21,002 nucleotides of DNA from positions 1 through 21,002 of IMG/VR virus record IMGVR_UViG_3300025879_000135, one strand, 5' to 3'. The translations under genes were made by a program, and so were the position numbers. The stretch comes from a virus. Shown piece after piece: positions 1,868 to 17,381 of this stretch. The notes beneath the pieces are model-generated. The model had not been told where the DNA came from. It did no database searches and was given only the letters and a program-made list of their open reading frames with translations. The first letter of the stretch is position 1. The number at the start of each line of letters is the position of its first letter.

Positions 1868-4800
1868 ATGAGCAATTTCACCAGTAAGACATTTAAAGAA
1901 ACATATCGTGACTTTTATGATAAAGAAAGCGGTTATCATCGTGTTTTATTCAATTCAGGTAAAGCACTACAAGCTCGCGAACTAAATGAGCTGCAGACTA
2001 TACTCCATGAAGAGATAGCGCGGTTTGGACGTAACATCTTTCGTGAAGGAGCCACAGTTAAAGCTGGTGGCTCAATAATCGACAACTCTAAAGAGTATAT
2101 CCGGCTGCAAGCTGGTACTCTGGTGCCCGAGAATATTGTAGGACAACAGTACCAAAATGCGCAGGGAATCAAGTTCATGGTAGAAGAGTACCATGAAGCT
2201 ACTGATGTAGATCCTCAAACATTATATGTTAGATACGTCGACACCTCTGCAGTAGTTGACACGAGTGTTCCTGCACGCGTCAACCCAAGCGAGATATTAA
2301 CGCCCGTAGGAGCTACAACCTTTCCTCTTACCGTAGCTTTAGATGGAGACGTTCCTGCTGTGGGTACTGGAACTAGTATATCCGTCAACGAAGGAGTTTT
2401 CTTCGTTGCTGGCCATTTCGTTCACTCTCCTCAGCAATCAACTTACATCGACAAGTATAATTCCAAGCCAACCGTGGACTTTGGATTCCAAGTAGTGGAA
2501 AGTGTTATTACGGAAGGAGAAGACGTTACTCTATACGATAATCAGGGTGCTTTTCCAAACACCGCAGCCCCAGGTGCTCACCGATACAAGATTGAATTGA
2601 CTCCCACTACCCGCGACGCTCTCACAGAGGAAGAAAACTTTGTGTTTGTAGCTCGGATTGTCAATGGGGTAATCACGCGTGAAGTTGACGCTAAAGATGA
2701 TTATAATATCATTAACGACTTACTCGCTACTCGTACCAAAGAAGAATCGGGGGATTATGTAGCCCGCGAATTCAAAACAATAATGCAGGACAAGGATGAT
2801 CTAACTCTAAATCTAGAGGTCACCCCAGGAACTGCTTATGTCGATGGCTACCGATTAGACTTCGGTACTACTAATTTAGATGTCGGGCGCGCTCGTGCGA
2901 CCGGTACCGTAAACAATGATAGCGTAATAGCCCAATACGGTAATTACGTGATCATCGACCCTACCCAAAGTACCGGATTGAGCGAGTTAACCTCATTCGA
3001 TCAAGTTAGCTTGGGTAATGGGGGGACTGCAAACGTTCGTGCTATTGAAAACGTAGGCGGTGAATATAGGCTTTATCTTTTCAATATACAAATGCCTGTA
3101 GGGTCCAACTTCAGAGACGTAACAACTATCACTGGAGTGAGCGGTTCGTGCACATTAAAAGTTCCTGGCCTACTTGGCGGAATCGACAACACGTTACTGT
3201 TTCCACTTCCTCACTCACGTCCTCAAGGTATTGTTGATACTAATTTTACCTCACAGCGTACAATCGAAGCTGTGGCAAACAGCTCTGGTGAAATACTAAT
3301 TTCCGATACTATTAATGGGTCATATCTTCCCGTAATATTCCAGACTGGAGTAGGTCTTGCCACTGGGTGGAGTACAACATCAAATAAAATTACTGGGCTC
3401 ACGCCTTCGACTCCATACATAGTCACATATTACTTTGAATCATCTAACCCCAGGGTTAGATCTAAAATCCCAGTCACTATAACAGAAAATGTTACTATTG
3501 GTGACGGCGTAGCCCCTGTACAAGGCCCAACATTTATACAGGGTACTACAATGTGGCGAGTGGAAAACAGAACTGGAGCCGCAAGTATTGTGTGGAACGG
3601 TGAGCTGATTACTACAGCTAGTGGTGCATCAGATATCACTACCCTTAATGCTGAAGGATTCCAGTATACTCGCGGAAGCACTCAAACGCCCACGTTTACA
3701 ACTACCTTTACGGCTCCAACATCTACCAATCTAAATTATGTAGACTTCGTAGGTAACTATGTCCGACCACTAGACTTTACTAGGGTCAGAGCCAGCATTT
3801 ACGCTGCGCCGGGTTTTACGCGTGTGGAAGAAGAATCATACTCTAGATTTTTAGAGATTGAACTTAGACCAGGTGAGCCTGACTTTCTAGAGCTACCTTT
3901 CACCCGAATGGCAACTAACACTTATGCTGGTCCAGGCCGGGCAAGTACATTCGTCGGAAACTATACGCGTAGCTCCTCATATACCCGATCTAGAGCAAGT
4001 ACCTACACCGGTTACTATACTCAAGGAGAGGGAAGCACTACGGGCGAGAATTATACCTATTATGCCGTATCTCGTCAAGCGTTGGCCAGTAGCCTAGATC
4101 TCTCCGCTATCACGTTAGATTATGCTGATGGCACCAAATTAGTTCAGATCGTTGATGCTTCAGGTAACGACGTTACTGGGTCATTTGAGTTTGATGGCGG
4201 TCAGCGTGATAATTATTACGGACCAATTAAACTTAGACTGAAATCTGGATTAACTGCAGAAGCAGGTTCTCAGTATACTGTTATTTTTCAGCACTACTTC
4301 CATGGGGACGGGGACTATTTCAGTGTCGAGTCGTACCCTACAATTTACAGTAACGTACCGTCATATAAAACATCTTCTGGTGATACAATACAACTGACTG
4401 ATGTATTAGACTTCCGTCCGGTAATTTTAGCGGATGGTATTCAGTCGAGTAGCATCAACACACTACCAAGAAACAAAAGTATTATCAGCGTCGACGCTAC
4501 TTACTACTTACCGCGTATAGACCTTCTGGTAGCTAATACTCTAGATTCGAGGGGTAGACTTGGTACTGGACGCCTACAAATAATTGAAGGTGAGGCGGCG
4601 CTAGATCCCCGTCCACCTCAAGTGCCGGTTGGTTCGCTATCATTATTCCAGATAGATCTGAATGCTTATACAGCAGATAAGAATGATTTATCTACTACTA
4701 GGATTCCGCACAAACGGTTCACTATGCAAGACATTGCAAAGTTGGAAGACCGAATCGATACCTTGTTTGAGCTTACCACACTTAGCTTACTCGAAGCAGA

Positions 4801-7204
4801 TACAGCAACACTGGCGGTATTGGACGAGCTCGGTAATAACCGTACCAAATCAGGATTCATAGCTGACAACTTCAGATCACTAAACTTCTGTGATTTGAAT
4901 AACCCCGATTATCGCGCTTCAGTTGAACCAACAAGTGGAGAGTTGATGCCGTCGTTTAGAGAGAACTCTGTGCGTCTCGCTATGAGGCAAAGCTCGGCTG
5001 TTAAGAAAGGGGATGTTGCAGTACTGCCTCATGTTAACACGTTACTAGCTAGTCAGCTACTGGCCACTGGCAGAATGAATATCAATCCGTTCGCTGTAAT
5101 TACGCAAACCGGTCACATGACATTATCTCCAGCTACGGATGAGTGGGTAGAAGTACGTCAGCTGCCCGAGATTATGCAATCCAACGTACGTCGAACCAGC
5201 ACCGATAGAACTGGTGGTGGGCGCGGTGGTAGGGTTACATCGCGAATCGTAGAAACCACTATCCAAGAGTTTTTAGGAGAGCAGGTTGTTGACGTTGAAG
5301 TAGTGCCGTTCATGAGATCTCGTGAAGTTTATTTCCGGGTCGAAGGACTGAGACCAAAAACTAGAATGTTTGCCTTCTTCGGTAACCAATCTGTGCAGCC
5401 ATGGGTGCGTCAAGAAAATGTATTTAGACTTTTCTCCGATAACCCAAGAGAGTCCGGAAGTGAGTTTGCTAGCGCTAGCGGACACCCGAATGGGTCTACA
5501 GAGCTAGTAACAGACGACAACGGTGTATTGATTGGGTCATTCTTTGTACCAAACACCCCCAGTATGTCATTCCGTACTGGTCAACAAGAATTTAAATTAC
5601 TTGACGTTAGCATCAACGATGACGATATGGCTATTTCATCATCGAGAGCTAACTATGAATCGGTCGGTCGTATTGATGCGGTACAACGCACCATTCGCAG
5701 TACACGAATCGTAGAAACTATCTCTGAGCGCATAGATCCTCTCGCTCAAACGTTCTTCATCGATCAAGTCGAGAATCCTAATGGGTTGTTCCTAACCCAT
5801 GTTAAAGTATTCATGGAGAGTAAAGATAGCGCGATTCCGTTACAAGTACAAATCCGACCCGTAGAAAATGGCATACCAACTACACGAATCGTCCCTGGAT
5901 CAAATAAGTTTGTATCCCCTTCGAATATCAACGTGGTGCCATTAACGCCCGATACTGATATAGCAGATGTTCGATTGTTTGGTGGTACAGATATTGATTT
6001 CGATGAACCTGTGTATTTAACCCCAGGTGAAGAGTATGCCATCGTACTGTTAGCCGAATCGGTTGAATACAACGCGTACGTTGCTGAAACCTACGAGTTT
6101 ATCCTTGGGCCGAATCAGCGAGAAGGTAGAGTGGATAAGCAGCCAACTCTTGGCTCACTATTCTTATCACAGAATGGTTCTACTTGGACACCCGATCAAA
6201 CGAGAGACTTAATGTTTGAGTTGTATCGCGCTGAGTTTGATACAACTGCTAATGTAGTGTTATCTAACACAGAAGTACCTAAGATTACATTAGGTCCAAA
6301 TCCTATCTCAGTTGAGAAGAATAGTGCGTTAGTAAACATTGCCCATCAGGGTCATGGATTCAACGCAAATGACGAAGTTGAGATTAGTGGCGTCCAGGGT
6401 ACTATTGGAGGAATCCCTGCAGCAAGTTTAAATAGTACCCATCTAATAGCAAGTGTGTCTTGGGAAGGATATCAGATTAACGTGGGGACAGTAGCCACCG
6501 CTTCTGTACTAGGAGGAGGCTCTTCAGTTGTAGCAAGTGAGCAGATCATGATTGACGAGATGACTCCTAACATTGCCAACATCACTCCTAACGGAACACG
6601 TATAACGGCAACAGTAACTCAAACATCTGGAGCCTCGTTTGGAGGAAACCGTAACAACCCTCTGTATAATGGTGCATATTCATCTGTGGGCTCAAAGCAG
6701 GTATTCATCAACGATCTCAACCTGAACGATAGACCGACGATTATAGCATCGCCTGATGACATGACCTTCAACATCACTCTATCAACCACTGATACTAAAG
6801 TATCTCCCTTGATTGATCTTCAACGGGTATCAGTAATGACACTAGAGAACGTTATTGATATGGGAACGGCTGCTCAGCATATTACTACACCTGTAATCCT
6901 AGATGAGTCAGCTGTAGGGCTTAAAATACTATTTTCGGCCCATCGGCCAAGTACAGTCGAGTTTGAGGTTTATGTTAAAACAGCAGCAGACGAATCTTCA
7001 CTAGAGGTATCTGAGTGGGTGTTGGTTGACGCTGATAATAACATACCGAGTGACGAGAGTCGAAACGTGTTTAGAGAATATTCATACACCATAGACACTG
7101 ATGATCAATTCAATATATTCCAAGCTAGGGTTGTAATGCAATCAACCAACTCTTCGAAGATTCCTATCATCAGCGACTTCAGAACAATAGCGTTGGCTGT
7201 TTAA
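1868..7204 (+). CDS. Giant DUF4815-type baseplate/tail structural protein with Tyr/Arg repeat insertion
   Basis: This is a 1778-residue virion protein. The N-terminus has the hallmark DUF4815 segment 'FNSGKALQARELNELQTIL' (about residues 28-46) and 'FREGATVKAGG' (58-68). 'TPGTAYVDGYRLDFG', near residue 318, is also typical of the family. In T4-like marine phages, genes of this type lie next to gp8 and are annotated as baseplate or tail-fibre proteins. The rest is beta-rich with no transmembrane segment. The C-terminal 150 residues, including 'FRTIALAV' at the end, look like the usual family end. Residues about 619-730 hold an unusual insertion of Tyr/Phe-Arg-Gly tetrads ('FVGNY', 'YTRSRASTYTGYYT') also found in three other genes here. 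The Shine-Dalgarno AGGA overlaps the gp8 stop, implying coupled translation. The exact baseplate position is unknown; gp10-like or gp7-like are possible alternatives. Confidence 0.8.
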   Translation: MSNFTSKTFKETYRDFYDKESGYHRVLFNSGKALQARELNELQTILHEEIARFGRNIFREGATVKAGGSIIDNSKEYIRLQAGTLVPENIVGQQYQNAQGIKFMVEEYHEATDVDPQTLYVRYVDTSAVVDTSVPARVNPSEILTPVGATTFPLTVALDGDVPAVGTGTSISVNEGVFFVAGHFVHSPQQSTYIDKYNSKPTVDFGFQVVESVITEGEDVTLYDNQGAFPNTAAPGAHRYKIELTPTTRDALTEEENFVFVARIVNGVITREVDAKDDYNIINDLLATRTKEESGDYVAREFKTIMQDKDDLTLNLEVTPGTAYVDGYRLDFGTTNLDVGRARATGTVNNDSVIAQYGNYVIIDPTQSTGLSELTSFDQVSLGNGGTANVRAIENVGGEYRLYLFNIQMPVGSNFRDVTTITGVSGSCTLKVPGLLGGIDNTLLFPLPHSRPQGIVDTNFTSQRTIEAVANSSGEILISDTINGSYLPVIFQTGVGLATGWSTTSNKITGLTPSTPYIVTYYFESSNPRVRSKIPVTITENVTIGDGVAPVQGPTFIQGTTMWRVENRTGAASIVWNGELITTASGASDITTLNAEGFQYTRGSTQTPTFTTTFTAPTSTNLNYVDFVGNYVRPLDFTRVRASIYAAPGFTRVEEESYSRFLEIELRPGEPDFLELPFTRMATNTYAGPGRASTFVGNYTRSSSYTRSRASTYTGYYTQGEGSTTGENYTYYAVSRQALASSLDLSAITLDYADGTKLVQIVDASGNDVTGSFEFDGGQRDNYYGPIKLRLKSGLTAEAGSQYTVIFQHYFHGDGDYFSVESYPTIYSNVPSYKTSSGDTIQLTDVLDFRPVILADGIQSSSINTLPRNKSIISVDATYYLPRIDLLVANTLDSRGRLGTGRLQIIEGEAALDPRPPQVPVGSLSLFQIDLNAYTADKNDLSTTRIPHKRFTMQDIAKLEDRIDTLFELTTLSLLEADTATLAVLDELGNNRTKSGFIADNFRSLNFCDLNNPDYRASVEPTSGELMPSFRENSVRLAMRQSSAVKKGDVAVLPHVNTLLASQLLATGRMNINPFAVITQTGHMTLSPATDEWVEVRQLPEIMQSNVRRTSTDRTGGGRGGRVTSRIVETTIQEFLGEQVVDVEVVPFMRSREVYFRVEGLRPKTRMFAFFGNQSVQPWVRQENVFRLFSDNPRESGSEFASASGHPNGSTELVTDDNGVLIGSFFVPNTPSMSFRTGQQEFKLLDVSINDDDMAISSSRANYESVGRIDAVQRTIRSTRIVETISERIDPLAQTFFIDQVENPNGLFLTHVKVFMESKDSAIPLQVQIRPVENGIPTTRIVPGSNKFVSPSNINVVPLTPDTDIADVRLFGGTDIDFDEPVYLTPGEEYAIVLLAESVEYNAYVAETYEFILGPNQREGRVDKQPTLGSLFLSQNGSTWTPDQTRDLMFELYRAEFDTTANVVLSNTEVPKITLGPNPISVEKNSALVNIAHQGHGFNANDEVEISGVQGTIGGIPAASLNSTHLIASVSWEGYQINVGTVATASVLGGGSSVVASEQIMIDEMTPNIANITPNGTRITATVTQTSGASFGGNRNNPLYNGAYSSVGSKQVFINDLNLNDRPTIIASPDDMTFNITLSTTDTKVSPLIDLQRVSVMTLENVIDMGTAAQHITTPVILDESAVGLKILFSAHRPSTVEFEVYVKTAADESSLEVSEWVLVDADNNIPSDESRNVFREYSYTIDTDDQFNIFQARVVMQSTNSSKIPIISDFRTIALAV
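3722..4060 (+). repeat. Tyr/Arg/Gly tetrad insertion within the DUF4815 protein
   Basis: About 110 residues of the DUF4815 protein change character abruptly to degenerate tetrads: 'YVDFVGNYVRPLDFTRVRAS', 'YTRSRASTYTGYYT'. Aromatic or Arg residues recur every four positions, as in the repeat proteins at 9014, 9550 and 11817. The flanking sequence is ordinary beta-rich virion protein, so the segment looks like an inserted module rather than part of the core. Confidence 0.7.
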
Positions 7205-7406: not shown

Positions 7407-9002
7407 ATGGCTTTTCAAATAATCAATCTAGCTGATCACATCAACGCCGCTGTTGATAAGATGAATGAAAACTTCGACCTTATCAGCTGGACGGCGGATA
7501 GCGATGCCATCAACAATACCATCAATAATTATATTGATAGCGATGTCATCAACAATATTATCAATAATTATATTGACAGTAGCGTAATTAATCAATTCAT
7601 AAACAGCGACACTATCAATAACTACCTCGATCAAAGTACTATAATTAATATTATAGATTCGGATTTCATACAATCCATAATACTTAATTTGAATCTTGAT
7701 GGTTCTATAGACTCGAGTCAATTTTACAGTATATTAGCTGAGACTGGCTTAGTAGCTAGAGTAGATAATGTTGAAGGGGGCTTAGTATTATTAGCCCAAG
7801 ACTATACCAATCTATCAACCAACTACACTAATCTAGATTCAGATGTATCAGCACTGTCGACTGCTTATAGTGGGTTAACTTCCCAGATATCTGTGCTCGA
7901 TAGTGGCATTGAGGTATTATCACAGGATCTGGTGAGTTTAGAAGCTCAATTTACTGGCAGTATCGAATTGGATTCCGCAGTAATTGTGCAAGCGATTGGT
8001 GGCGCACTCACCACATTAGATACTAGAATAAATGCTAACTCAGATGAGATCAGTGTTGTCTCTCAGGCCGTTACGAACTTATCAGCTGACCTATCATTAC
8101 TTGATAGTACATTATCCCCCCTAATACAAGCTAATTCAACAGCAATTTCTAATCTTGTAGCATCTGCCACAGCTAACTCGGATGAGCTTGAAGTACTATC
8201 CGGCCGGTTTGATAGCTTCCAAGTAACTCTACAAAATGCCATTGATAGTGGATTAGAGATCAACCCAGATGATGTTGCTGCAGCAGTGGGTGGTATTACT
8301 GATGATTTATATACTAGAATTTACGCAAACTCTGATAAAATCGGAGTTGTATCTGCATCAATAACAAGCCTAAACTCTAAGCTAACGTTACTCGATAGCG
8401 CTGGGGCATTAACCGATGTAATTGCAGATGCGGTGTCCGATCTCAGAGCCGAAGTTGTAGCAGGCGACAGTGGCAATTTAAATGCTATTTCCCAGTTAGA
8501 GGTAACTCTTAACAACAAAATCGATAGTGATGTCCAAACTGCGTTGACAACATTATCAAATACATATGTTACGGATGGAGAGCTCACTACAGCTGTACAG
8601 AACGCAACCACATCACTAACACAAACGATTAATAATACGGTAGCAACCGCCGAGCAGACCCTCAACACTAGAATAGACGGTATCGATCTTAGTGTTGAAG
8701 TTGGGTATACTCTAAACTTAGATGCTAATGGTCATGTAGCTGGTATTGAATTTAACAATAATGGCGAAACTGCCGCTATGTCCATCTTTGCTGATAAGTT
8801 TGCTATAGTAAACTCATCGGACAGTGCTATTCGGCCATTTACCGTCGACGGTGACCAGATTCTACTATCAAACGCTACTGTTACAGGATCCCTAAATATA
8901 AGCTCTAGTAGTACGAACGGGTCCATGACAATGACTAATGACTTAATGCAGATATTTGATGCTGGTGGTAACCCCCGCGTTAGATTTGGCCGGCTAGCAT
9001 AA
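7407..9002 (+). CDS. Fibre-like virion protein with DUF1983-type C-terminal domain
   Basis: The 531-residue protein has three parts. Residues 1-30 ('DHINAAVDKMNENFDLIS') resemble the N-terminal attachment helix of phage fibre-like proteins. Residues 31-90 are Asn/Ile/Asp-rich repeats ('DSDAINNTINNYI', then 'DSDVINNIINNYI'), encoded by a 39-nt tandem duplication. Residues 100-430 are long Ser/Thr/Leu/Asp heptad-like stretches ('LDSDVSAL', 'LLDSTLSPLI', 'ANSDEISVVSQAVTNL') that suggest a trimeric coiled-coil shaft. From Val432 to the end is a DUF1983-type domain ('NLDANGHVAGIEF', 'FADKFAIVN', 'LSNATVTG', 'IFDAGGNPRVRFG') closely similar to the end of the first gene in the window. The ATG directly follows the previous stop, with GGAG upstream. 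The likely role is a tail fibre or tail-tip component that uses its end domain as a knob or adaptor; the exact role is inferred. Confidence 0.75.
   Translation: MAFQIINLADHINAAVDKMNENFDLISWTADSDAINNTINNYIDSDVINNIINNYIDSSVINQFINSDTINNYLDQSTIINIIDSDFIQSIILNLNLDGSIDSSQFYSILAETGLVARVDNVEGGLVLLAQDYTNLSTNYTNLDSDVSALSTAYSGLTSQISVLDSGIEVLSQDLVSLEAQFTGSIELDSAVIVQAIGGALTTLDTRINANSDEISVVSQAVTNLSADLSLLDSTLSPLIQANSTAISNLVASATANSDELEVLSGRFDSFQVTLQNAIDSGLEINPDDVAAAVGGITDDLYTRIYANSDKIGVVSASITSLNSKLTLLDSAGALTDVIADAVSDLRAEVVAGDSGNLNAISQLEVTLNNKIDSDVQTALTTLSNTYVTDGELTTAVQNATTSLTQTINNTVATAEQTLNTRIDGIDLSVEVGYTLNLDANGHVAGIEFNNNGETAAMSIFADKFAIVNSSDSAIRPFTVDGDQILLSNATVTGSLNISSSSTNGSMTMTNDLMQIFDAGGNPRVRFGRLA
7497..7574 (+). 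repeat. 39-nt tandem duplication in the fibre gene
   Basis: Two copies (7497-7535 and 7536-7574) encode the 13-residue units DSDAINNTINNYI and DSDVINNIINNYI. They differ at only a few bases. Shorter decayed copies ('DSSVINQFI', 'NSDTINNYL') follow immediately, suggesting growth by repeated slippage or unequal exchange. Confidence 0.85.
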
Positions 9003-9013
9003 AGGATTAAAAA

Positions 9014-9550
9014 ATGGCTGATTTTACAGTATCGTATACAAGGACATTATCATTCGCAGGGAACTACGTAACGTCGTTCACTCGAAATCGTGTATCTTCG
9101 TATAGCTCCGATACAACAAATACATTTTCTGCAACCTTTACGCGACTGCGCCCGTCAACCTATACCAGGAATAGACAAAGCACTTATTCCGGAACATTTG
9201 TTAGAACTTTTTCTGGGTATTATAGTAGAGCGTTTGCGGGTAATTATTCCCAATCATTTGCTGGGACTTATACTAGAACGTTCACCGTTTCTAGAGTCTC
9301 TGCATACACCAGAGACAGAACACAAAATTTTACTAGAACACGAACGTCGGTAACGAGCTCTCGACTTTTCGTTCGTTCATTTTCCAGATATCAATACTTT
9401 ACCCCATTTTACACTAGAGTGGGTAGTCAAGGATATTTTGCTGCGGTGTATACGGCTTATTATGGTGGGACCTACAGTAGGACTATATCGCGTACTGGTA
9501 CAATAACATCTATATTATTCACCGCTCCTAATGGGGGGATTGAGCCGTAA
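9014..9550 (+). CDS. Small Tyr/Arg/Gly tetrapeptide-repeat protein
   Basis: The 178-residue protein is made almost wholly of tetrads of the form [Y/F/R]-[S/T/A/V]-[R/G/S]-x: 'FTRNRVSSYSSD', 'YTRNRQSTYSGTFVRTFSGY', 'YSRAFAGNYSQSFAGTYTRT'. The repeats fade after about residue 118 into a Tyr/Phe-rich tail ending 'ITSILFTAPNGGIEP'. No signal peptide, membrane segment or Cys is visible. The Shine-Dalgarno AGGA (9004-9007) lies 6 nt before the ATG. The stop overlaps the next start by one base (TAATG), implying coupling. Arg is encoded mostly by AGA/AGG, unlike the repeats of the 11817 gene. I do not recognise a characterised family. Position among fibre genes suggests a virion surface or adhesive component. 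Confidence 0.75.
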   Translation: MADFTVSYTRTLSFAGNYVTSFTRNRVSSYSSDTTNTFSATFTRLRPSTYTRNRQSTYSGTFVRTFSGYYSRAFAGNYSQSFAGTYTRTFTVSRVSAYTRDRTQNFTRTRTSVTSSRLFVRSFSRYQYFTPFYTRVGSQGYFAAVYTAYYGGTYSRTISRTGTITSILFTAPNGGIEP

Positions 9551-10401
9551 TGCCTGAATCCTATTATACAAGAACCTCCACATTTACTAGAATTAGCACC
9601 CGAACAGGAGGCACTACAGCTGACTTTTCAGGTACTCCAAGAGTCGTAGATTATACTAGGACTAGAGCAGGTACTGCTAGTACTCGACTAATATCATATG
9701 CGAATTTTGAGGATGGTAACGAAAGTACTGCGTTTTATTCTAGGTCATTCGTCGGCGATTTCATTGGAAACTTCACCGGTAATTATGTTAGATCGTTTAG
9801 TAGATCTAGAACCGTAGAGTCAATTGGGTATTACTCGAGAAACTATATTGGGTATTACACAAGAGCGTACCAAGGGTTTTATACAGTATCATCAGCTGGG
9901 GGATATTCGCGGTTATTTGCCGGTAACTATGCCCGATCATTCCTAGGAGTGTATTCCAGGGGGTACAGCGGATTATATACTAGAAGCTCTACGAACACAT
10001 TTAGTGGAACATTCACCAGAACTTCTGTAGGCGACTATACAAGAACTACGACTCGTGTTAGTACAATTTCTGGTGGTACTGGAGCTCCTCCTACGTATAC
10101 TGGTGCGCCAGCATCAGATGCTGAATATGGTCTGGTGGTATATGGACCAGATGGTGTAACTGAAATTATCAACCCTACAACTAGAGTATTAAACCTAGTA
10201 TTTTACGGTAGTGTTTCGGTTGGACCATACTCAACGACAAATATTACAATAGAAGATGTAGGGGATCCTACCAAAGTTATTGTAGCGTTTGGTTTCAGGT
10301 ATACTTCTATAAGCTATTCTGTATCAGGCAACACACTGACAGTGATAAACGATCGCTCTACCGCATCAGCTCCAGTTATAATAGCAGCGAGGATAGCATA
10401 A
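9550..10401 (+). CDS. Tetrapeptide-repeat protein with C-terminal 'YGLxV' domain
   Basis: This is a 283-residue two-part protein. Residues 1 to about 175 are Tyr/Phe-Arg-Gly tetrads ('SFVGDFIGNFTGNYVRSFSR', 'YYSRNYIGYYTRAYQGFYT', 'LFAGNYARSFLGVYSRGYSG'). After a short Gly/Pro/Ala linker, residues about 190-283 form an ordinary globular beta domain beginning 'AEYGLVVYGPDGVTEIINPT' and ending 'SAPVIIAARIA'. The same opening ('YGLVVKSFDG...EIIQLDTERGLVNYVI') begins the next gene, so the two share a domain. The start codon overlaps the previous stop and follows a G-rich run (ATGGGGGGATT) that can act as Shine-Dalgarno. A plausible reading is a fibre whose repeat shaft carries a receptor-binding or capping tip; this is inference. 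Confidence 0.75.
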   Translation: MPESYYTRTSTFTRISTRTGGTTADFSGTPRVVDYTRTRAGTASTRLISYANFEDGNESTAFYSRSFVGDFIGNFTGNYVRSFSRSRTVESIGYYSRNYIGYYTRAYQGFYTVSSAGGYSRLFAGNYARSFLGVYSRGYSGLYTRSSTNTFSGTFTRTSVGDYTRTTTRVSTISGGTGAPPTYTGAPASDAEYGLVVYGPDGVTEIINPTTRVLNLVFYGSVSVGPYSTTNITIEDVGDPTKVIVAFGFRYTSISYSVSGNTLTVINDRSTASAPVIIAARIA

Positions 10402-11135: not shown

Positions 11136-11603
11136 ATGACAACAGTAGTAAAATATGTAGCTAAAATTGAGGAAGATACTGGCCGTATCATGTGTGTAGA
11201 ATTTCCTCAAGCATCAGTACCACCAGAAGGTACTGAAAATGGGATTACCACAGTTCACGTGACGCCTGATAGAATGACAGAAGGCTTCATGGGCCCTGGT
11301 TGGAACCCCTTACTGCATTTTTGGGATGGATCATCGTTCGTATATGTAGGAAAACCTCCAAATCGTCACGCTATATATAATGGTACTGATTGGGAGTGGG
11401 ATGCTGTGGCATTCATGAACGACATCAAGGGTATACGTAACAATAAACTATACAAATCGGATTGGACTCAATCTCCCGATGCACCATTAACAGAAGAGGA
11501 AAAGCAGGCGTGGGCAGTATATAGACAACAACTACGCGACTTTCCGTCAACATTAGACAACCCTGCTAGTTTAGAGGAATTGGTATGGCCCATGCAACCA
11601 TAA
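11136..11603 (+). CDS. Tail-fibre assembly chaperone-like protein
   Basis: The C-terminal half of this 155-residue protein carries a pattern common in phage tail (fibre) assembly chaperones: 'IRNNKLYKSDWTQSPDAPLT' followed by 'EEKQAWAVYRQQLRDFPSTL' and ending 'ELVWPMQP'. In such families 'R..LL..SDWTQ.PD.PL....+.AW..YRQ.LRD.P.....WP..P' is the typical signature. The N-terminal half is a small beta-rich region with several Trp ('GPGWNPLLHFWDGSSFVY', 'YNGTDWEWD'). Chaperones of this kind are usually encoded beside the fibre they help fold, which fits either the fibre set just upstream or the repeat protein downstream. GAGGA at 11120-11124 is the Shine-Dalgarno, 11 nt before the ATG. The family match is from memory of the pattern. 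Confidence 0.7.
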   Translation: MTTVVKYVAKIEEDTGRIMCVEFPQASVPPEGTENGITTVHVTPDRMTEGFMGPGWNPLLHFWDGSSFVYVGKPPNRHAIYNGTDWEWDAVAFMNDIKGIRNNKLYKSDWTQSPDAPLTEEEKQAWAVYRQQLRDFPSTLDNPASLEELVWPMQP

Positions 11604-11790: not shown

Positions 11791-11818
11791 ACTTTTAAAA
11801 AAGAGAGCGATTAAAAGT
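11791..11818 (+). promoter_or_regulatory. Hairpin enclosing the ribosome binding site of the giant repeat gene
   Basis: ACTTTTAA (11791-11798) pairs with TTAAAAGT (11811-11818), an 8-bp stem with a 12-nt loop. The loop holds the likely Shine-Dalgarno (AAGAGAG, about 11801-11807) and the right arm includes the first two bases of the GTG start at 11817. Both arms are in the late transcript. The stem is AT-rich, so it may be marginally stable. Translation damping is possible but unproven. Confidence 0.45.
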
Positions 11819-14800
11819 GTCAGCATCTAGTATCCCATTAAAAATACTGAATTCAGATGGTGACCTGAAGGAATTTACGCCGTTAGAAGAAAATTATCTG
11901 GCGTATGCAGTAGGACAAGCATTACTAAACCCAACTGATGTTGGTTCACTAACGCTTAGCCCAACGGGAGTTGCTGTCGGTTCTTATGTTGATACATACT
12001 TCAACCAGAGCCCCGGAACTCACCCTGCCAGCCAAATCACTTCTGGTTCAACTACTACGACCCTTCGTCAGGTAGCGGGACCAGCAACTGAAAGCGGCCA
12101 AAACATTCCTGTAGGTTACTACGCCCAAGATCCTAATCCCGGTTTCTACGAAATGGTAGACGCGGACTTATCCAACTTAGCTAATCGTGTACTCGGTAAC
12201 ATGGTCCAGAATGACTATATCGGTACCTATCGATTGGCAGCATCTTCACCTGGATCAGATTACTCTATCCATATAGCGAACGTCTTCACTGACACGCGTG
12301 GGGATGGGGTATCTACAAACTATCACATCTATATTCGTAACTCAATGACGGCCGTTGGAGCTGTTCGTCCCGTTCGCGTACGATACGACGGCTCGAACTT
12401 TGGTGGCTTCCAAGAGATGACTGATGCTGAGATCCAAGACGTGTTGGGTCAGCGTATCAAGACATTGAGATCGTCAGTTGGTAGTATTGGTAGCTATCAA
12501 TTACTTTCTTCAGCTCAAGGCGCACCCATCGGTGGTGGTACGTGGAAGGTTGTTGGTACAGCCGTAAACACCAAGCTAACGACAGCTCAAATCGATTATA
12601 CGCGCAGCCGCAACTCGAGCTACGTACAGACCCGAGTTTCAGCCTACACGCGTAACAGAGTGTCTACCTTTAGTGGTACATATTCACGCACTACAAGCCA
12701 AGTATTTGTCGGCAATTACGCTGGTAACTATAGCCGCGACTTCGCCGGCAATTATTCACGAGGTTTTGTAGGGGAATATACTGGCGATTTCGTAGGAGTA
12801 TATTCTCGTTTACGCTCTTCAGCTTATTCTGATAACTATGCCCGTAATCGTATTTCGACTTACGCTGGCACATATTCACGCAATCGTGTAAGTACATATT
12901 CGCGTAACCGAGTCTCAGCCTATGCTGGTACGTATGCTCGTAATAGGGTGTCGTCTTATGCTGGCACATATTCGCGTAACCGCGTCTCAGCCTATGCAGG
13001 CACGTATTCACGCAATCGCGTAAGTACATATGCTCGTACTCGTCTCACGGCATTTTCTGCCGACTACACAGGCGTATACACGCGTGCACGCGCATCTGTT
13101 TATACACGAGCTCGCGTTTCAACTTACTCTGCTGACTACACTGGCACGTATTCCCGTGCTCGGGTCTCTGCATACTCTCGCGCGCGCACATCGGCGTATG
13201 CCCGTGACCGTGTAACCGACTTTGCTGGTAACTTTATTGGTAACTATAGCCGCAACTTCGTAGGAGATTACTCTCGCGGGTTTGCTGGTAACTACGCGCG
13301 CGGCTATGCTGGTAACTTTGTCGGTAATTACGCCACAACATATACTGGCGACTTCGTAGGTAACTATGCACGTGGGTTTGTCGGCGATTATGTTGGCGAC
13401 TTCGTAGGCAACTATGCTCGTACCAGGGTAACGAACTATACGCGCGATGACGCTGCGACATTAACCTTTACTCGAGTACTAGCGTATACTGGTAACTATT
13501 CAACTGCCTATACCCGTGACCGTGTAACCAACTTCACCACGAGTCCATCGTATTCACGTACACGTATTACAAACTATGTAATATCGCCATCGTATTCACG
13601 TACACGTATTACAGACTATGCAATATCGCCATCATACACGCGCGCTCGTGCCGCTACGCTAGATTATACGCGTACCCGAGCTGCGAGCTACACTGGTGAC
13701 TATGCCCGTACAGCATACTATACTGGCAACTATGCTCGTGTAGCATACTATACTGGCAACTATGCTCGTGTATATTACTATACCGGTAACTACGCTCGTT
13801 CATTGACTTACACTGGTGACTTCGTAGGTAACTATACTAGAACTGGTGCAGTAGCTTATACCCGTAATAGGGCTGCTATAGGGTATTATTCGCGAAATCT
13901 GTCGTACTCTAGAACTGGAACATCATACTACGTTGGTCCTCCAAGTCCACCAATAGGGCCAGATCCTGGTGATCCTCAGATATACACACGAACCGCCACT
14001 ACATATTATTCGCGAACTGTAATATACACGCGCACAGTAACATACGCTGGGAACTATGCTCGTAATGTAACATATGATTATACTAGGACGAGAGCTACTA
14101 ACTATACCACCGTCCTAGGTTACTCACGCGATCGTGCTTACTATCCAGCGTATTCTCGTGATCGTGCTTACTATCCAGCGTATTCTCGTGATCGTGCTTA
14201 CTATCCAGCGTATACTCGAGTTCGCGCAGCTAGCTATGTAGGAAACTATACTAGGGCAGTAACATACACTGGCAACTATGCTCGTACGTTAATTTATACT
14301 GGCGACTTCGTAGGTAATTATGCTCGTACGTTAACTTATACTGGCGACTTCGTTGGCAACTATGCTCGTACGTTGGTTTATGCAGGAAACTTCGTAGGCA
14401 ACTACGCTAGAGCTTATGTTGCGGACTATACACGTACTGGGTATTATACTCGCGTTAGCTCGTACATCGGGGATTTCGTCGGTGACTTTGTTGGAGAGTA
14501 TGCTAGAACTTCGGTTCGTACAAGCGTTCGTACCCGTAGTAGCGCATATGCTCGTACTCGTATTACAGACTACGTTGGCGACTTTACACGTACAAGTACG
14601 CGCACTCGATACTCCGCGTACGTTCGTACTCGCGTTTCAGCTTATGCTCGTACTCGTTCTAGTGCTTACGCTAGAGATCGTGTAACGAACTTTGCTGGTA
14701 ACTTCATTGGCAACTATGCTCGTACCTTCGCAGGTAACTATGCTAGATCGTTTGCTGGTGAATACGTAGGTAACTATGTTGGCAATTATGCGAGAGCATT

Positions 14801-15386
14801 TACTGGAAATTATGCTAGATCGTTTGCTGGTGAATACACAGGTAATTATGTGGGCAACTACACCGGCGACTTCGTTGGCAACTACAGTCGTGCATTTGCT
14901 GGTGAATACTCAGGTAACTACAGCAGAACATTTGTTGGTGAATACTCCGGCACATACAACAGAACATTTGTTGGTGAGTACTCTGGTAACTATACTCGCG
15001 GATTCGCTGGAAACTATTCTCGTGGCTTTGCTGGCGAGTATATCGGAAACTATTCGCGCGGATTCGTTGGGGATTATGTAGGCAACTACAGTCGTGCATT
15101 TGCTGGTGAATATACAGGCAACTACACTAATGTATTCTCACGCACCCGCGTTAGCGCATACTCTCGTGCGCGTACATCATCGTATACCGATGATTATGCC
15201 CGTAACCGTGTATCAACATATGTAGGTGAATACGTTGGGGCATACGCCAGAGGCTATGCTGGAAACTACTCTCGAGACTTCGTGGGCAACTACTCACGAG
15301 CGTTTGTTGGTAACTATGTTGGTATGACTATCCAGCCAACGTTCAACATTGTTGAGACGTATACGTTGTATGTAAGGGTTGCCTAA
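11817..15386 (+). CDS. Giant Tyr/Arg/Gly tetrapeptide-repeat virion protein
   Basis: The protein has 1189 residues and a GTG start, and is preceded by an exact late promoter. Residues 1-260 are a normal globular head ('LKEFTPLEENYLAYAVGQAL', 'GSYVDTYFNQSPGTHP', 'SGSTTTTLRQ') like N-termini I recall in T4-like marine phage structural proteins. The head includes an internal duplication (residues 109-145 and 197-233: 'GFYEMVDADL' against 'GFQEMTDAEI'). From Tyr261 to about Tyr1167 the chain is tetrads [Y/F/R]-[S/T/A/V]-[R/G/S]-[N/D/T/A], in two main flavours: 'YSRNRVST' and 'YARGFVGD'. Register is kept for roughly the first 70 tetrads, then two-residue spacers appear. A Pro-rich break lies at residues 707-721. 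The last 20 residues ('MTIQPTFNIVETYTLYVRVA') are non-repetitive. No Cys or membrane segment is seen in the repeats. Function is unknown; a fibre shaft, whisker or adhesive surface protein is plausible. Confidence 0.85.
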   Translation: MSASSIPLKILNSDGDLKEFTPLEENYLAYAVGQALLNPTDVGSLTLSPTGVAVGSYVDTYFNQSPGTHPASQITSGSTTTTLRQVAGPATESGQNIPVGYYAQDPNPGFYEMVDADLSNLANRVLGNMVQNDYIGTYRLAASSPGSDYSIHIANVFTDTRGDGVSTNYHIYIRNSMTAVGAVRPVRVRYDGSNFGGFQEMTDAEIQDVLGQRIKTLRSSVGSIGSYQLLSSAQGAPIGGGTWKVVGTAVNTKLTTAQIDYTRSRNSSYVQTRVSAYTRNRVSTFSGTYSRTTSQVFVGNYAGNYSRDFAGNYSRGFVGEYTGDFVGVYSRLRSSAYSDNYARNRISTYAGTYSRNRVSTYSRNRVSAYAGTYARNRVSSYAGTYSRNRVSAYAGTYSRNRVSTYARTRLTAFSADYTGVYTRARASVYTRARVSTYSADYTGTYSRARVSAYSRARTSAYARDRVTDFAGNFIGNYSRNFVGDYSRGFAGNYARGYAGNFVGNYATTYTGDFVGNYARGFVGDYVGDFVGNYARTRVTNYTRDDAATLTFTRVLAYTGNYSTAYTRDRVTNFTTSPSYSRTRITNYVISPSYSRTRITDYAISPSYTRARAATLDYTRTRAASYTGDYARTAYYTGNYARVAYYTGNYARVYYYTGNYARSLTYTGDFVGNYTRTGAVAYTRNRAAIGYYSRNLSYSRTGTSYYVGPPSPPIGPDPGDPQIYTRTATTYYSRTVIYTRTVTYAGNYARNVTYDYTRTRATNYTTVLGYSRDRAYYPAYSRDRAYYPAYSRDRAYYPAYTRVRAASYVGNYTRAVTYTGNYARTLIYTGDFVGNYARTLTYTGDFVGNYARTLVYAGNFVGNYARAYVADYTRTGYYTRVSSYIGDFVGDFVGEYARTSVRTSVRTRSSAYARTRITDYVGDFTRTSTRTRYSAYVRTRVSAYARTRSSAYARDRVTNFAGNFIGNYARTFAGNYARSFAGEYVGNYVGNYARAFTGNYARSFAGEYTGNYVGNYTGDFVGNYSRAFAGEYSGNYSRTFVGEYSGTYNRTFVGEYSGNYTRGFAGNYSRGFAGEYIGNYSRGFVGDYVGNYSRAFAGEYTGNYTNVFSRTRVSAYSRARTSSYTDDYARNRVSTYVGEYVGAYARGYAGNYSRDFVGNYSRAFVGNYVGMTIQPTFNIVETYTLYVRVA
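13542..13625 (+). repeat. 42-nt tandem repeat in the giant gene
   Basis: Two near-identical 42-nt copies (13542-13583, 13584-13625) encode SPSYSRTRITNYVI and SPSYSRTRITDYAI. A diverging third copy follows (SPSYTRARAA). The unit is three tetrads plus a Ser-Pro-type dipeptide and marks the point where the tetrad register first breaks. Confidence 0.85.
13701..13820 (+). repeat. 30-nt tandem repeat in the giant gene
   Basis: Four 30-nt units (13701, 13731, 13761, 13791) encode variants of YARVAYYTGN. Copies one and two differ at three bases and later copies diverge further. Each unit is two tetrads plus a two-residue spacer. Confidence 0.85.
14130..14213 (+). repeat. 30-nt perfect tandem repeat in the giant gene
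   Basis: Copies at 14130-14159 and 14160-14189 are identical. A third from 14190 is identical through 14213 and then diverges. They encode DRAYYPAYSR. The identity over more than two copies indicates very recent expansion or assembly-sensitive slippage. The unit lacks Gly and contains Pro, unlike neighbouring tetrads. Confidence 0.9.
14295..14420 (+). repeat. 42-nt tandem repeat in the giant gene
   Basis: Copies at 14295-14336 and 14337-14378 encode YTGDFVGNYARTLT and YTGDFVGNYARTLV. A more diverged third (14379-14420) encodes YAGNFVGNYARAYV. The unit is three tetrads plus a dipeptide. Confidence 0.85.
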
Positions 15387-15503: not shown

Positions 15504-15965
15504 ATGGCTACTAAAAAATGGCTTGATAATGCGTTCTGGGAAACAGATGAAAAGCAACAGCTTAATTGTATTCTAGAAATCGTTGACGATGAGGGGCGCG
15601 AAGTTCGACAGGTTATGAAGCTGAATCGTACAGACCGTGAGGGTAATCCTAACGCGATGTTCGAAGAGGTAGTTGAGGCGCTGGGCGAAGAAGCAATTGA
15701 TCGAGAGACTTCAGATCGAGTTACGCGGAAGAAAGCAGAAGCTGATGAGAATAAGCAGCGCGACTTAGAACATCAGAAAGCGCGTAAGCTCGAGAAGTTA
15801 TTTAACTATAAATTAGAAGCATTTGAAGTTGATGAGATTAAAGCATCTAAAAACCGTGCGCTCAAGGGTAAGCTGCGCCGCGCTAAATCGAGAATTGAAG
15901 TTGATTTATATTCAATTATGATTTTACAAGAAGCTCTTGAGGCCGGGACTGATGGAAAAGAGTAA
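15504..15965 (+). CDS. Charged helical protein of unknown function
   Basis: The 153-residue protein is rich in Glu, Lys, Arg and Asp. Residues 1-60 ('KKWLDNAFWETDEKQQLNCI', 'VDDEGREVRQVMKLNRTD') look like a small alpha/beta region. Residues 65-150 are predicted mostly helical ('VTRKKAEADENKQRDLEHQK', 'IKASKNRALKGKLRRAKSRI'). I recall similar proteins of this size in T4-like marine phages without assigned function. GGAG at 15490-15493 is the Shine-Dalgarno, 10 nt before the ATG. It overlaps the glycosyltransferase start by 14 nt, so the genes are translated together. No good late octamer precedes it; TATATAAC near 15452 is only a poor match. Confidence 0.7.
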   Translation: MATKKWLDNAFWETDEKQQLNCILEIVDDEGREVRQVMKLNRTDREGNPNAMFEEVVEALGEEAIDRETSDRVTRKKAEADENKQRDLEHQKARKLEKLFNYKLEAFEVDEIKASKNRALKGKLRRAKSRIEVDLYSIMILQEALEAGTDGKE

Positions 15966-16677
15966 GGGATTTGTTATAGTTGCGAGCAGAAATCGCAACT
16001 TTTATCTATACGCTATTAATCTCGCTGAATCCATTAGAGATTATTATGAAGACTGTAACATTTGCTTAGTTACAGAGGAAAGGTTTATTGACGATCGTGG
16101 TTACGATGTTGCTGATGATGTTATCTTCTGCGACGACCACTATCGCGCTAAGTTATGGGGTATGGCGAAATCACCATATGACATAACAATGTATATTGAT
16201 GCTGACATGGAATGTGAGCACGAAGATATTATTAAAGTATGGGATGAGATGAAAGACTATGATATGGTTTTCTCTGAACTTACTGATGATCGTGACTACA
16301 TCTACGCTGAGCGGGATTTTGACACCCCAGAGGGTAAATCTAAATTCATACTTTGCGGTGGTGTTTGTTTATACGATATGTCTAAGCCCATTGTTCGTGA
16401 GTTCATGCAAGATTGGTGGGATTTGACTCATAAGCAGATGAACGATACTTGGTGGCCTGATGGTTATGCTGACTCATTAAAATCTTGGGATCAGTTTAGC
16501 TTGTGGTGGTTGACCAATAAAGAAGAAAAATATAAAGATCTTAACATTGGAATCTTCGATGACGATTTAAGATGGAACTATTACAACGCACTAAATTGGG
16601 CGAGAACTCAGCCAGAAGGACCCGTAATTTTACGTCACTTCTCTGCTGGCTTAGAAAAGGATAAACCGATCTTATGA
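15952..16677 (+). CDS. GT8-like glycosyltransferase
   Basis: This 241-residue protein has features of nucleotide-sugar transferases of the GT-A fold. The N-terminus is beta-alpha ('GFVIVASRNRNFYLYAINLA'). A DxD motif lies in 'YIDADMECEH' (Asp83-Ala-Asp85), which binds the metal and nucleotide-sugar. A Gly-Gly-rich segment 'FILCGGVCLYD' and a C-terminal 'HFSAGLEKDKP' (His229) resemble the HxxGxxKP motif of GT8-type enzymes. It should transfer a sugar in the host cytoplasm; the donor and acceptor cannot be told. The ATG at 15952 has TTGAGG 9 nt upstream and overlaps the previous gene by 14 nt. A TTG at 15937 is a less likely start. Its stop overlaps the next start (ATGA). Its place in a late cluster beside the giant Tyr/Ser/Thr-rich protein makes virion glycosylation a possibility. 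Confidence 0.75.
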   Translation: MEKSKGFVIVASRNRNFYLYAINLAESIRDYYEDCNICLVTEERFIDDRGYDVADDVIFCDDHYRAKLWGMAKSPYDITMYIDADMECEHEDIIKVWDEMKDYDMVFSELTDDRDYIYAERDFDTPEGKSKFILCGGVCLYDMSKPIVREFMQDWWDLTHKQMNDTWWPDGYADSLKSWDQFSLWWLTNKEEKYKDLNIGIFDDDLRWNYYNALNWARTQPEGPVILRHFSAGLEKDKPIL

Positions 16678-17381
16678 CACAGATTAACGAATCATATGTA
16701 AAGCACGTGGATGTCAATAACCCAGAGCTGCTTGATATTTTAAACGAATACTCCCAACTATACACGTGGGACGGGCTCGAGGAACATTGCCACCTAACTG
16801 CGGCCGAGCATATTCTTCAACGTCCTCATTGGATGTCTGACGAGTATCTCCAGCAGGTTATGGATCAGGGCGAAGCTCATGAAGGCTTCCCCGATATGAT
16901 AGTAGCCTATAACTTCAAACTTTCGGAGCGCGCTCACACATTCTTTAAGAGTGATGCTGATCCAGTATTCAAGCGCGACTTCACTAACAAGTTGGGTGAG
17001 CTTAACGACCGAATGATGAACTTCTTGTCTGTTAAGCATAACGCATTATGTGCCATCTACCCTCCAGGTGGATTCATTTCATGGCACAACAATGCCAATG
17101 CTCCAGGGTATAACCTAATTTTTACCTGGTCGGAAACGGGCGATGGTCACTTCTCTTATGTTCACCCCGAGACAAAGGAAGTTGTCAAGTGTGAAGATAC
17201 CGCTGGTAAGTGGACTTGTAAAGCCACATACTTCGGTTCACATGAAGAGAAAGAAAAGCAGATGTACCACGCTGCTGAAAGTGAATGTTGGCGTGTTACA
17301 GTTTCTTATGTGTTCGATACGACAGATACTTCAGCTGAATTCCGAGAAATGGTCCTAGAGGACATATCTGCTGGGGCTTAA
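16674..17381 (+). CDS. 2OG-Fe(II) oxygenase-like protein
   Basis: The 235-residue protein has a C-terminal half with the layout of 2-oxoglutarate/Fe(II) dioxygenases of the prolyl-hydroxylase type. It has 'YPPGGFISWHNNANAPGYNL' with His138 as candidate first iron ligand, beta strands 'IFTWSETGDGHFSYVHP', a Trp-Tyr-Phe-Gly segment, then 'MYHAAESECWRVTVSYVF' with His199 as distal iron ligand and Arg207 as the 2OG-binding Arg. The second ligand would be Asn140 (HxN) rather than the usual Asp (HxD), so activity is uncertain. Similar 'GWHTN-PGYN' proteins are known to me in marine T4-like phages. The N-terminal 90 residues have no recognised motif. It overlaps the glycosyltransferase by 4 nt (ATGA), so the two are co-translated and may act on the same target. 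A hairpin and late promoter follow. Confidence 0.65.
   Translation: MTQINESYVKHVDVNNPELLDILNEYSQLYTWDGLEEHCHLTAAEHILQRPHWMSDEYLQQVMDQGEAHEGFPDMIVAYNFKLSERAHTFFKSDADPVFKRDFTNKLGELNDRMMNFLSVKHNALCAIYPPGGFISWHNNANAPGYNLIFTWSETGDGHFSYVHPETKEVVKCEDTAGKWTCKATYFGSHEEKEKQMYHAAESECWRVTVSYVFDTTDTSAEFREMVLEDISAGA

Follow-up and report, generated by a model that had tools for sequence, protein, structure and literature searches.

Two small genes of a T4-like phage, lying between its tail-tip gene and a giant repeat gene, are built largely from the same short repeat as the giant, and the locus raises the question of what this repeat is and how it came to occupy several neighbouring genes. The window (the whole stretch of DNA analysed here) is a 21,002-base virus record from a T4-like phage in which the tail genes all lie on one strand. 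A preliminary description had placed the gene pair at 9014-10080; the start holds, but ORF283 runs to 10401, and 10080 falls near the end of its repeat part. The features are as follows, the slot being the interval from the tail-tip gene to the giant.

534-1859, + strand: gp8 wedge gene
1868-7204, + strand: DUF4815 protein, adjoining gp8; matches phrog_358 (function unassigned in PHROGs)
3548-3679, + strand: W-NG domain (a name coined here) in the DUF4815 protein, residues 561-604
3707-4069, + strand: shaft insertion in the DUF4815 protein, residues ~614-734
7407-9002, + strand: tail tip/fibre protein, 531 aa, border of the slot; Pfam Phage_Tail_Tip, E 2.8e-6; the counterpart in Phage C48C1 is annotated as a tail fiber protein
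9014-9550, + strand: ORF178, repeat mainly in residues 22-129; C-terminus rich in Tyr; neither a head nor a tip domain recognised
9550-10107, + strand: ORF283, repeat part; strict shaft call over residues 35-186
10111-10401, + strand: ORF283, C-terminal SYGL domain, whose homologues in other lineages are stand-alone proteins of ~100 aa
10401-11117, + strand: ORF238, with two SYGL-type motifs, slot partner
11136-11603, + strand: tail fibre assembly chaperone (Phage_tail_APC; PF16778, E 6e-18; tail fibre assembly in PHROGs)
11817-12587, + strand: giant, conserved head of ~257 aa, GTG start
12585-15386, + strand: giant, repeat shaft (residues 257-576 and 591-1189) and short C-terminal cap
15952-16677, + strand: glycosyltransferase-like protein with invariant DxD; weak Glycos_transf_2 match
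16674-17381, + strand: conserved protein, family unassigned, linked to the giant

The giant is 1189 aa long (11817-15386). ORF178 and ORF283 share a one-base stop/start overlap (TAATG), as do ORF283 and ORF238. The order gp8, DUF4815, tail tip, slot, chaperone, giant recurs in Phage C48C1 and in IMG/VR groups, and places the repeat genes beside baseplate and fibre-chaperone genes, as expected of tail fibre proteins. The tail-tip gene has a 39-base tandem repeat of its own (7497-7576), encoding a stretch rich in D-S-D/N-N-x-I.

A tetrapeptide repeat in neighbouring tail genes

The giant, ORF178 and ORF283 have in common a tetrapeptide unit, [F/Y]-[A/V/T/S]-[G/R]-[N/D]. Among 147 distinct perfect 48-residue runs, found with a pattern that fixed position 1 as F/Y and position 3 as G/R, position 2 is mostly A, V, T or S (A 28%, V 22%, T 22%), position 3 is G in 69% and R in 31%, and position 4 is N in 46% and D in 24%. 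The translations also contain units with R at position 1 and many of R-V-S-A type. Within the repeat region of the giant (900 aa) there is a period of 2 and 4 (z = 6 to 17), F/Y residues most often lie four apart (104 cases) and 276 of the 298 F/Y/R steps are even. Alternate residues differ in kind, which would fit an extended beta strand with two unlike faces.

That the two small proteins consist largely of this module is borne out by parity and motif density above those of all 1000 shuffles. Even F/Y/R steps number 44 of 55 in ORF178 (shuffle mean 22.2) and, over residues 1-183 of ORF283, 40 of 52 (shuffle mean 21.7), values reached by 0/1000 shuffles in either case. Strict [FY]x[GR]x motifs account for 77 residues in ORF178, where shuffles average 24.6 and peak at 49, and for 96 in the ORF283 repeat part, where they average 28.8 and peak at 55 (1000 shuffles each). 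The Tyr-rich tail described for ORF178 is visible in its translation, and ORF283 does carry a separate C-terminal domain, with no period detected in its last 108 residues. The insertion reported in the DUF4815 protein is likewise present, with a weaker signal than the other copies: no shuffle of 500 reproduces the local stretch at residues 669-725, the period falls short of significance (z at most 1.8) and the motif count over the whole protein, 104, is within what shuffling gives (maximum 138). The protein had been called the hub, a label that is not upheld by its position next to the gp8 wedge gene or by its match to a family without assigned function.

ORF178 and ORF283 have no family matches in Pfam, PHROGs or NCBIfam, and the shaft profile has no believable match in the PDB or Pfam; PDB sequence searches with the giant, ORF283 and the shaft profile likewise returned nothing believable (one aquaglyceroporin, E 0.04). 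The portions of the literature reached by our searches held no published description of the repeat. Enterococcus phage Riverwalk and Vibrio phage F23s1 have frames that resemble the shaft; these were set aside as chance, being simple octapeptide frames with no annotated protein-coding gene, and matches in Marine virus AG-345-D19 were dropped as below the shaft threshold. The reading we favour, with moderate confidence and from sequence, is that the repeat is a tail fibre-shaft module of a T4-like phage that would form a trimeric, intertwined beta-fibre.

Distribution of the module among related phages

A profile of the giant's head has 173 matches in viral_contigs (IMG/VR phage contigs). The head is followed by shaft in 79 of the best 80 of these, the remaining contig (L054) ending before the shaft, and complete distinct giants (n = 89) range from 668 to 3884 aa with a median of 1527. 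AlphaFold models the head with pLDDT mostly 70-90 over residues 1-220, dipping to ~48-55 near residues 61-80, and searching PDB, VIA-align and BFVD for similar folds with this model turned up nothing at E <= 0.001 or Z >= 2. Giants with head and shaft also occur in tandem (L050, L052, L080, L081, L083, L084, L088-L092, L094), the upstream copy usually being shorter; seven of the nine tandem-giant rows in the head tree fall on one branch. The single match in genome_contigs is a head and shaft relative near the end of a 142-kb contig from a Sphingobacteriales MAG (L177, JAAXIF010000028.1), which may be a binned phage and offers a possible hint of the host.

The glycosyltransferase-like gene behind the giant (15952-16677) is present in 30/33 head groups, which is every group whose sequence reaches that point, and Glycos_transf_2 is detected in 18/31 members, weakly (best E 0.001). 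Its neighbour (16674-17381) is present in 29/33 head groups, the rest being cut off, and has no significant family in Pfam, NCBIfam, PHROGs or the PDB; an assignment as 2-oxoglutarate oxygenase from sequence motifs was rejected, having no library support. Among named phages, both genes match only C48C1. The two proteins may modify the shaft.

The small genes are far more restricted. Where they occur, they occur together: ORF178 and ORF283-with-tip occur in the same four contigs and are always adjacent (4/4 contigs having either, among the matches listed; the search covered the best 80 of 259 matches, 76 distinct loci), with the giant head downstream in each, cut by the contig end in one. The shaft-fused SYGL tip is seen in only these four contigs, and ORF178 only there. 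A 63-kb IMG/VR contig encodes both proteins, with identities to those of the window of 100% for ORF283 and 99% for ORF178; ORF178 homologues in three other contigs have 36-62% identity. The homologue in L010/L018 (151 aa) is below the shaft threshold and retains parity (25/34 even steps).

The view of the window as a kit of four architectures survives in part. One module does appear in several architectures, and the survey raises their number above four. The shaft can stand by itself or carry a SYGL tip; it can follow a head, in some proteins with other domains inserted and in some loci as two such proteins in tandem; it can lie between a SYGL-type N-terminal domain and a C-terminal domain (1165-1568 aa, the N-terminus being of the ORF238 domain type); and it can be inserted in the DUF4815 protein. 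An obligate set, however, it is not. Loci with any exact 120-mer in common were merged, a rule that links relatives in chains and that gave 40 groups (five, L012-L016, are not members). Where the slot could be read, in 30 groups each judged by one representative, 26 have the giant without the small genes; on this comparison ORF178 and ORF283 are therefore add-ons, not required parts.

Elsewhere the slot often contains, besides the chaperone, two SYGL proteins, one of ~100 aa that stands alone and one of ~245-293 aa. The ORF283 tip is homologous to the stand-alone SYGL proteins over the whole domain (hhalign 97.1%, E 6e-11, 91 columns), and of 14 groups with a SYGL hit in an HMM survey nine have the stand-alone form, four the shaft fusion and one another form. 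In several lineages the place of ORF178 is taken by a protein of ~300 aa that starts MFYVLSSHN, has a DGDD motif and looks glycosyltransferase-like by eye (L020:7308-8204, L022:7358-8266, L112:4005-4904); NCBIfam has no family for the L020 protein. In a midpoint-rooted tree of the giant head (46 rows chosen from the window and 80 head loci), all three small-shaft rows whose head is complete group in a single clade (100/99), which lies within a set of rows lacking the small-shaft genes; L098 is absent from this placement because its head is cut.

The DUF4815 gene has a similar distribution. The shaft insertion is found in three of nine aligned DUF4815 proteins (the window, L098 and L103, the last on the L017 contig), each with the small W-NG domain and ~100 shaft residues; in L104 (L018 contig) the small domain stands without shaft, and the other five lack both. 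An HMM built from five domains that interrupt shafts matches the small DUF4815 domain in 4/4 carriers (i-E 1.8e-6 to 3.2e-4; 2.8e-4 in the window) and has no hit at that place in the non-carriers, nine proteins in all. Because all carriers and no non-carrier are matched there, small domain and shaft were probably copied into the DUF4815 gene as a pair. Domains of the type W-x-V ... W-N-G ... Y-x-R-G recur as shaft insertions and, by eye, in other slot proteins (L049:7738-8688, L047:9048-9860, L011:13335-23378, L055:419-4981).

The simplest history suggested by these sequences is that existing slot genes gained the shaft in an ancestor shared by the four contigs. Loss in other lineages is a less simple alternative, since it calls for several events and leaves the stepwise DUF4815 insertion unexplained. 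In light of the slot, fusion and DUF4815 patterns of the relatives, the construction-kit description finds its support as the evolutionary spread of a module.

It could be argued that the proteins are separate fibres, or non-virion factors acting for example at the surface or in assembly, which share only the repeat, and the absence of the small genes from 26 of the 30 readable groups that have the giant counts in favour of this. Their co-occurrence in 4/4 contigs, and their place in an operon-like block with overlapping stop and start codons and a fibre chaperone, speak against this account, which we regard as unlikely.

The nature of the shaft

AlphaFold monomer models give the repeats very low confidence throughout (pLDDT ~30 in the giant and ORF283). 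In ORF283 the values are ~27-37 in the repeats and ~50-78 from residue 221 on, and a BFVD fold search with this model returned phage proteins of ~90-152 aa at probability near 1 over roughly tip-length alignments, which we take only as a hint because the E-values are 0.018 or worse. Such low confidence, together with a composition rich in Y, R, G, S and T, could describe a disordered Tyr/Arg/Gly "sticker" polymer of condensate-like low complexity, in effect a flexible adhesive brush and not a rigid shaft. Disorder requires no parity, however, and the strict two-residue alternation in the giant and the beta-favouring residues make this quite improbable; nor does the low confidence favour disorder, because a monomer prediction cannot model an obligate trimer.

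Shaft length varies among close relatives. Giants L022 and L024 are 99.9% identical and differ by one 24-residue block, and among 51 giant pairs of >=80% identity, which are not independent, 42 of the 53 gaps of at least 12 residues are multiples of four; no such preference appears in the full set of 215 gaps from these same non-independent pairs, of which 64 are divisible by four, 72 are of other even lengths and 79 are odd. The long gaps seen among related giants measure 12, 14, 20, 24, 28 and 32 residues, with 30 and odd lengths as well, and the window giant contains tandem DNA units of 24, 30, 36, 42 and 72 bases. A lone beta-solenoid in each chain, with fixed residues per coil, would account for the beta-like period of 2 and 4 and for the DNA units of 24, 36 and 72 bases. 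The 30- and 42-base units and the assorted gaps leave no common coil length, so that a fixed-coil solenoid is hard to fit to such mixed lengths, and no solenoid appears in the AlphaFold models at any confidence; we seriously doubt this explanation.

Active block length change, and the lack of a recognised head or tip in ORF178, might also make the small genes functionless by-products of repeat slippage or decay from the giant, which is scarcely credible for two genes that persist in four contigs at 36-66% identity, one of them with a conserved tip that has orthologues. For the window and L098, a single pair in which synonymous sites are near saturation, pN and pS are 0.23 and 0.70 in ORF178, 0.20 and 0.65 in the ORF283 repeat part and 0.25 and 0.68 in its tip. 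With pN about a third of pS, ORF178 and ORF283 are, by this measure, maintained genes kept intact under purifying selection.

Under the fibre-shaft reading, three intertwined chains would make up a beta-fibre, the aromatic side chains of one lying over the glycines of its neighbour or stacking on the neighbour's arginines. The head of the giant would anchor the shaft to the baseplate region, the neighbouring chaperone presumably aiding its folding. The sequences show that shaft length changes by blocks, mostly of whole tetrapeptides, and that in one clade the module has been joined to a pre-existing tip (ORF283), occurs by itself in ORF178 and has entered the DUF4815 protein of the baseplate region. 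ORF283 could then be a side branch or a short piece of fibre holding the SYGL domain away from the baseplate, and ORF178 a segment that spaces or connects; given such roles, the small genes would be a recent extension of the attachment apparatus, probably serving receptor reach or specificity. Against the fibre-shaft reading we count the shaft pLDDT and the missing PDB and Pfam matches, a weak tie to T4 gp5 (see below), the groups without small genes, and the gaps of 14, 30 and odd length. A bolder version, which we offer tentatively, is that the tetrapeptide is an undescribed fibre fold, a mobile shaft that phages join to existing tip proteins and place inside baseplate proteins, tuned by whole tetrapeptides and decorated by the products of the two genes behind the giant.

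If the fibre-shaft reading is right, a fibre module has been caught spreading, with the likely ancestral states (tip without shaft, DUF4815 without insertion), intermediate (inserted small domain only) and derived states all in one gene neighbourhood, and a phage would be building new attachment parts from a reusable module. The giants also make up a large phage protein family (668 to 3884 aa among complete copies) that is undescribed in the family libraries searched, and their sequence is regular enough for study as a fibre material.

Comparison with known phages and fibres

The best named relative is Phage C48C1 (OQ984149; listed under Kyanoviridae), which has the gene order of the window and a giant (WJE88074.1) that is 63% identical in the head and has a like shaft. 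It differs in that this giant is 3347 aa long with several inserted domains, the tip protein is 112 aa without shaft, and both ORF178 and the DUF4815 insertion are lacking.

A structural protein of the Synechococcus phage S-RIM2 (YP_007675557.1; Kyanoviridae) contains [V/L]-T-G-[N/D] tetrapeptides in the same register as the window repeat, with a hydrophobic residue at position 1, a small one at 2, G at 3 and N/D at 4, and the giant finds this stretch by tblastn. The window repeat shares the period of four, the G at position 3 (limited to G/R by the search pattern) and the N/D at position 4. It does not share V/L at position 1, which is aromatic by pattern, or T at position 2, and it departs further in having R at 31% of third positions within perfect runs and many R-V-S-A type units. 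The window-type shaft extends up to >1000 residues per protein and occurs in several genes; identity is ~31%.

According to PMC4576200, the C-terminal part of T4 gp5 is a trimeric, triple-stranded beta-helix of VxGxxxxx octads whose length can be changed by repeats. The likeness lies in short G-containing repeats with N or D at a repeat position. The window unit, [FY]x[GR]x, is however a tetrad and not an octad, with F/Y in place of V, and the window repeat has no Pfam or PDB match to gp5, with no Gp5 repeat family among the Pfam matches. Searched against the PDB, the S-RIM2 repeat does reach T4 gp5 chains (E 0.004 to 0.3), and this tie is only a lead because two unrelated low-complexity chains rank above them. 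Since the octad is not found and gp5 matches are absent, we liken the repeat to a fibre shaft and do not call it a gp5 helix. By analogy, then, it probably works like a phage fibre shaft, the closest known counterpart being the [V/L]-T-G-[N/D] repeats of S-RIM2 and, more loosely, the triple beta-helix of T4 gp5.
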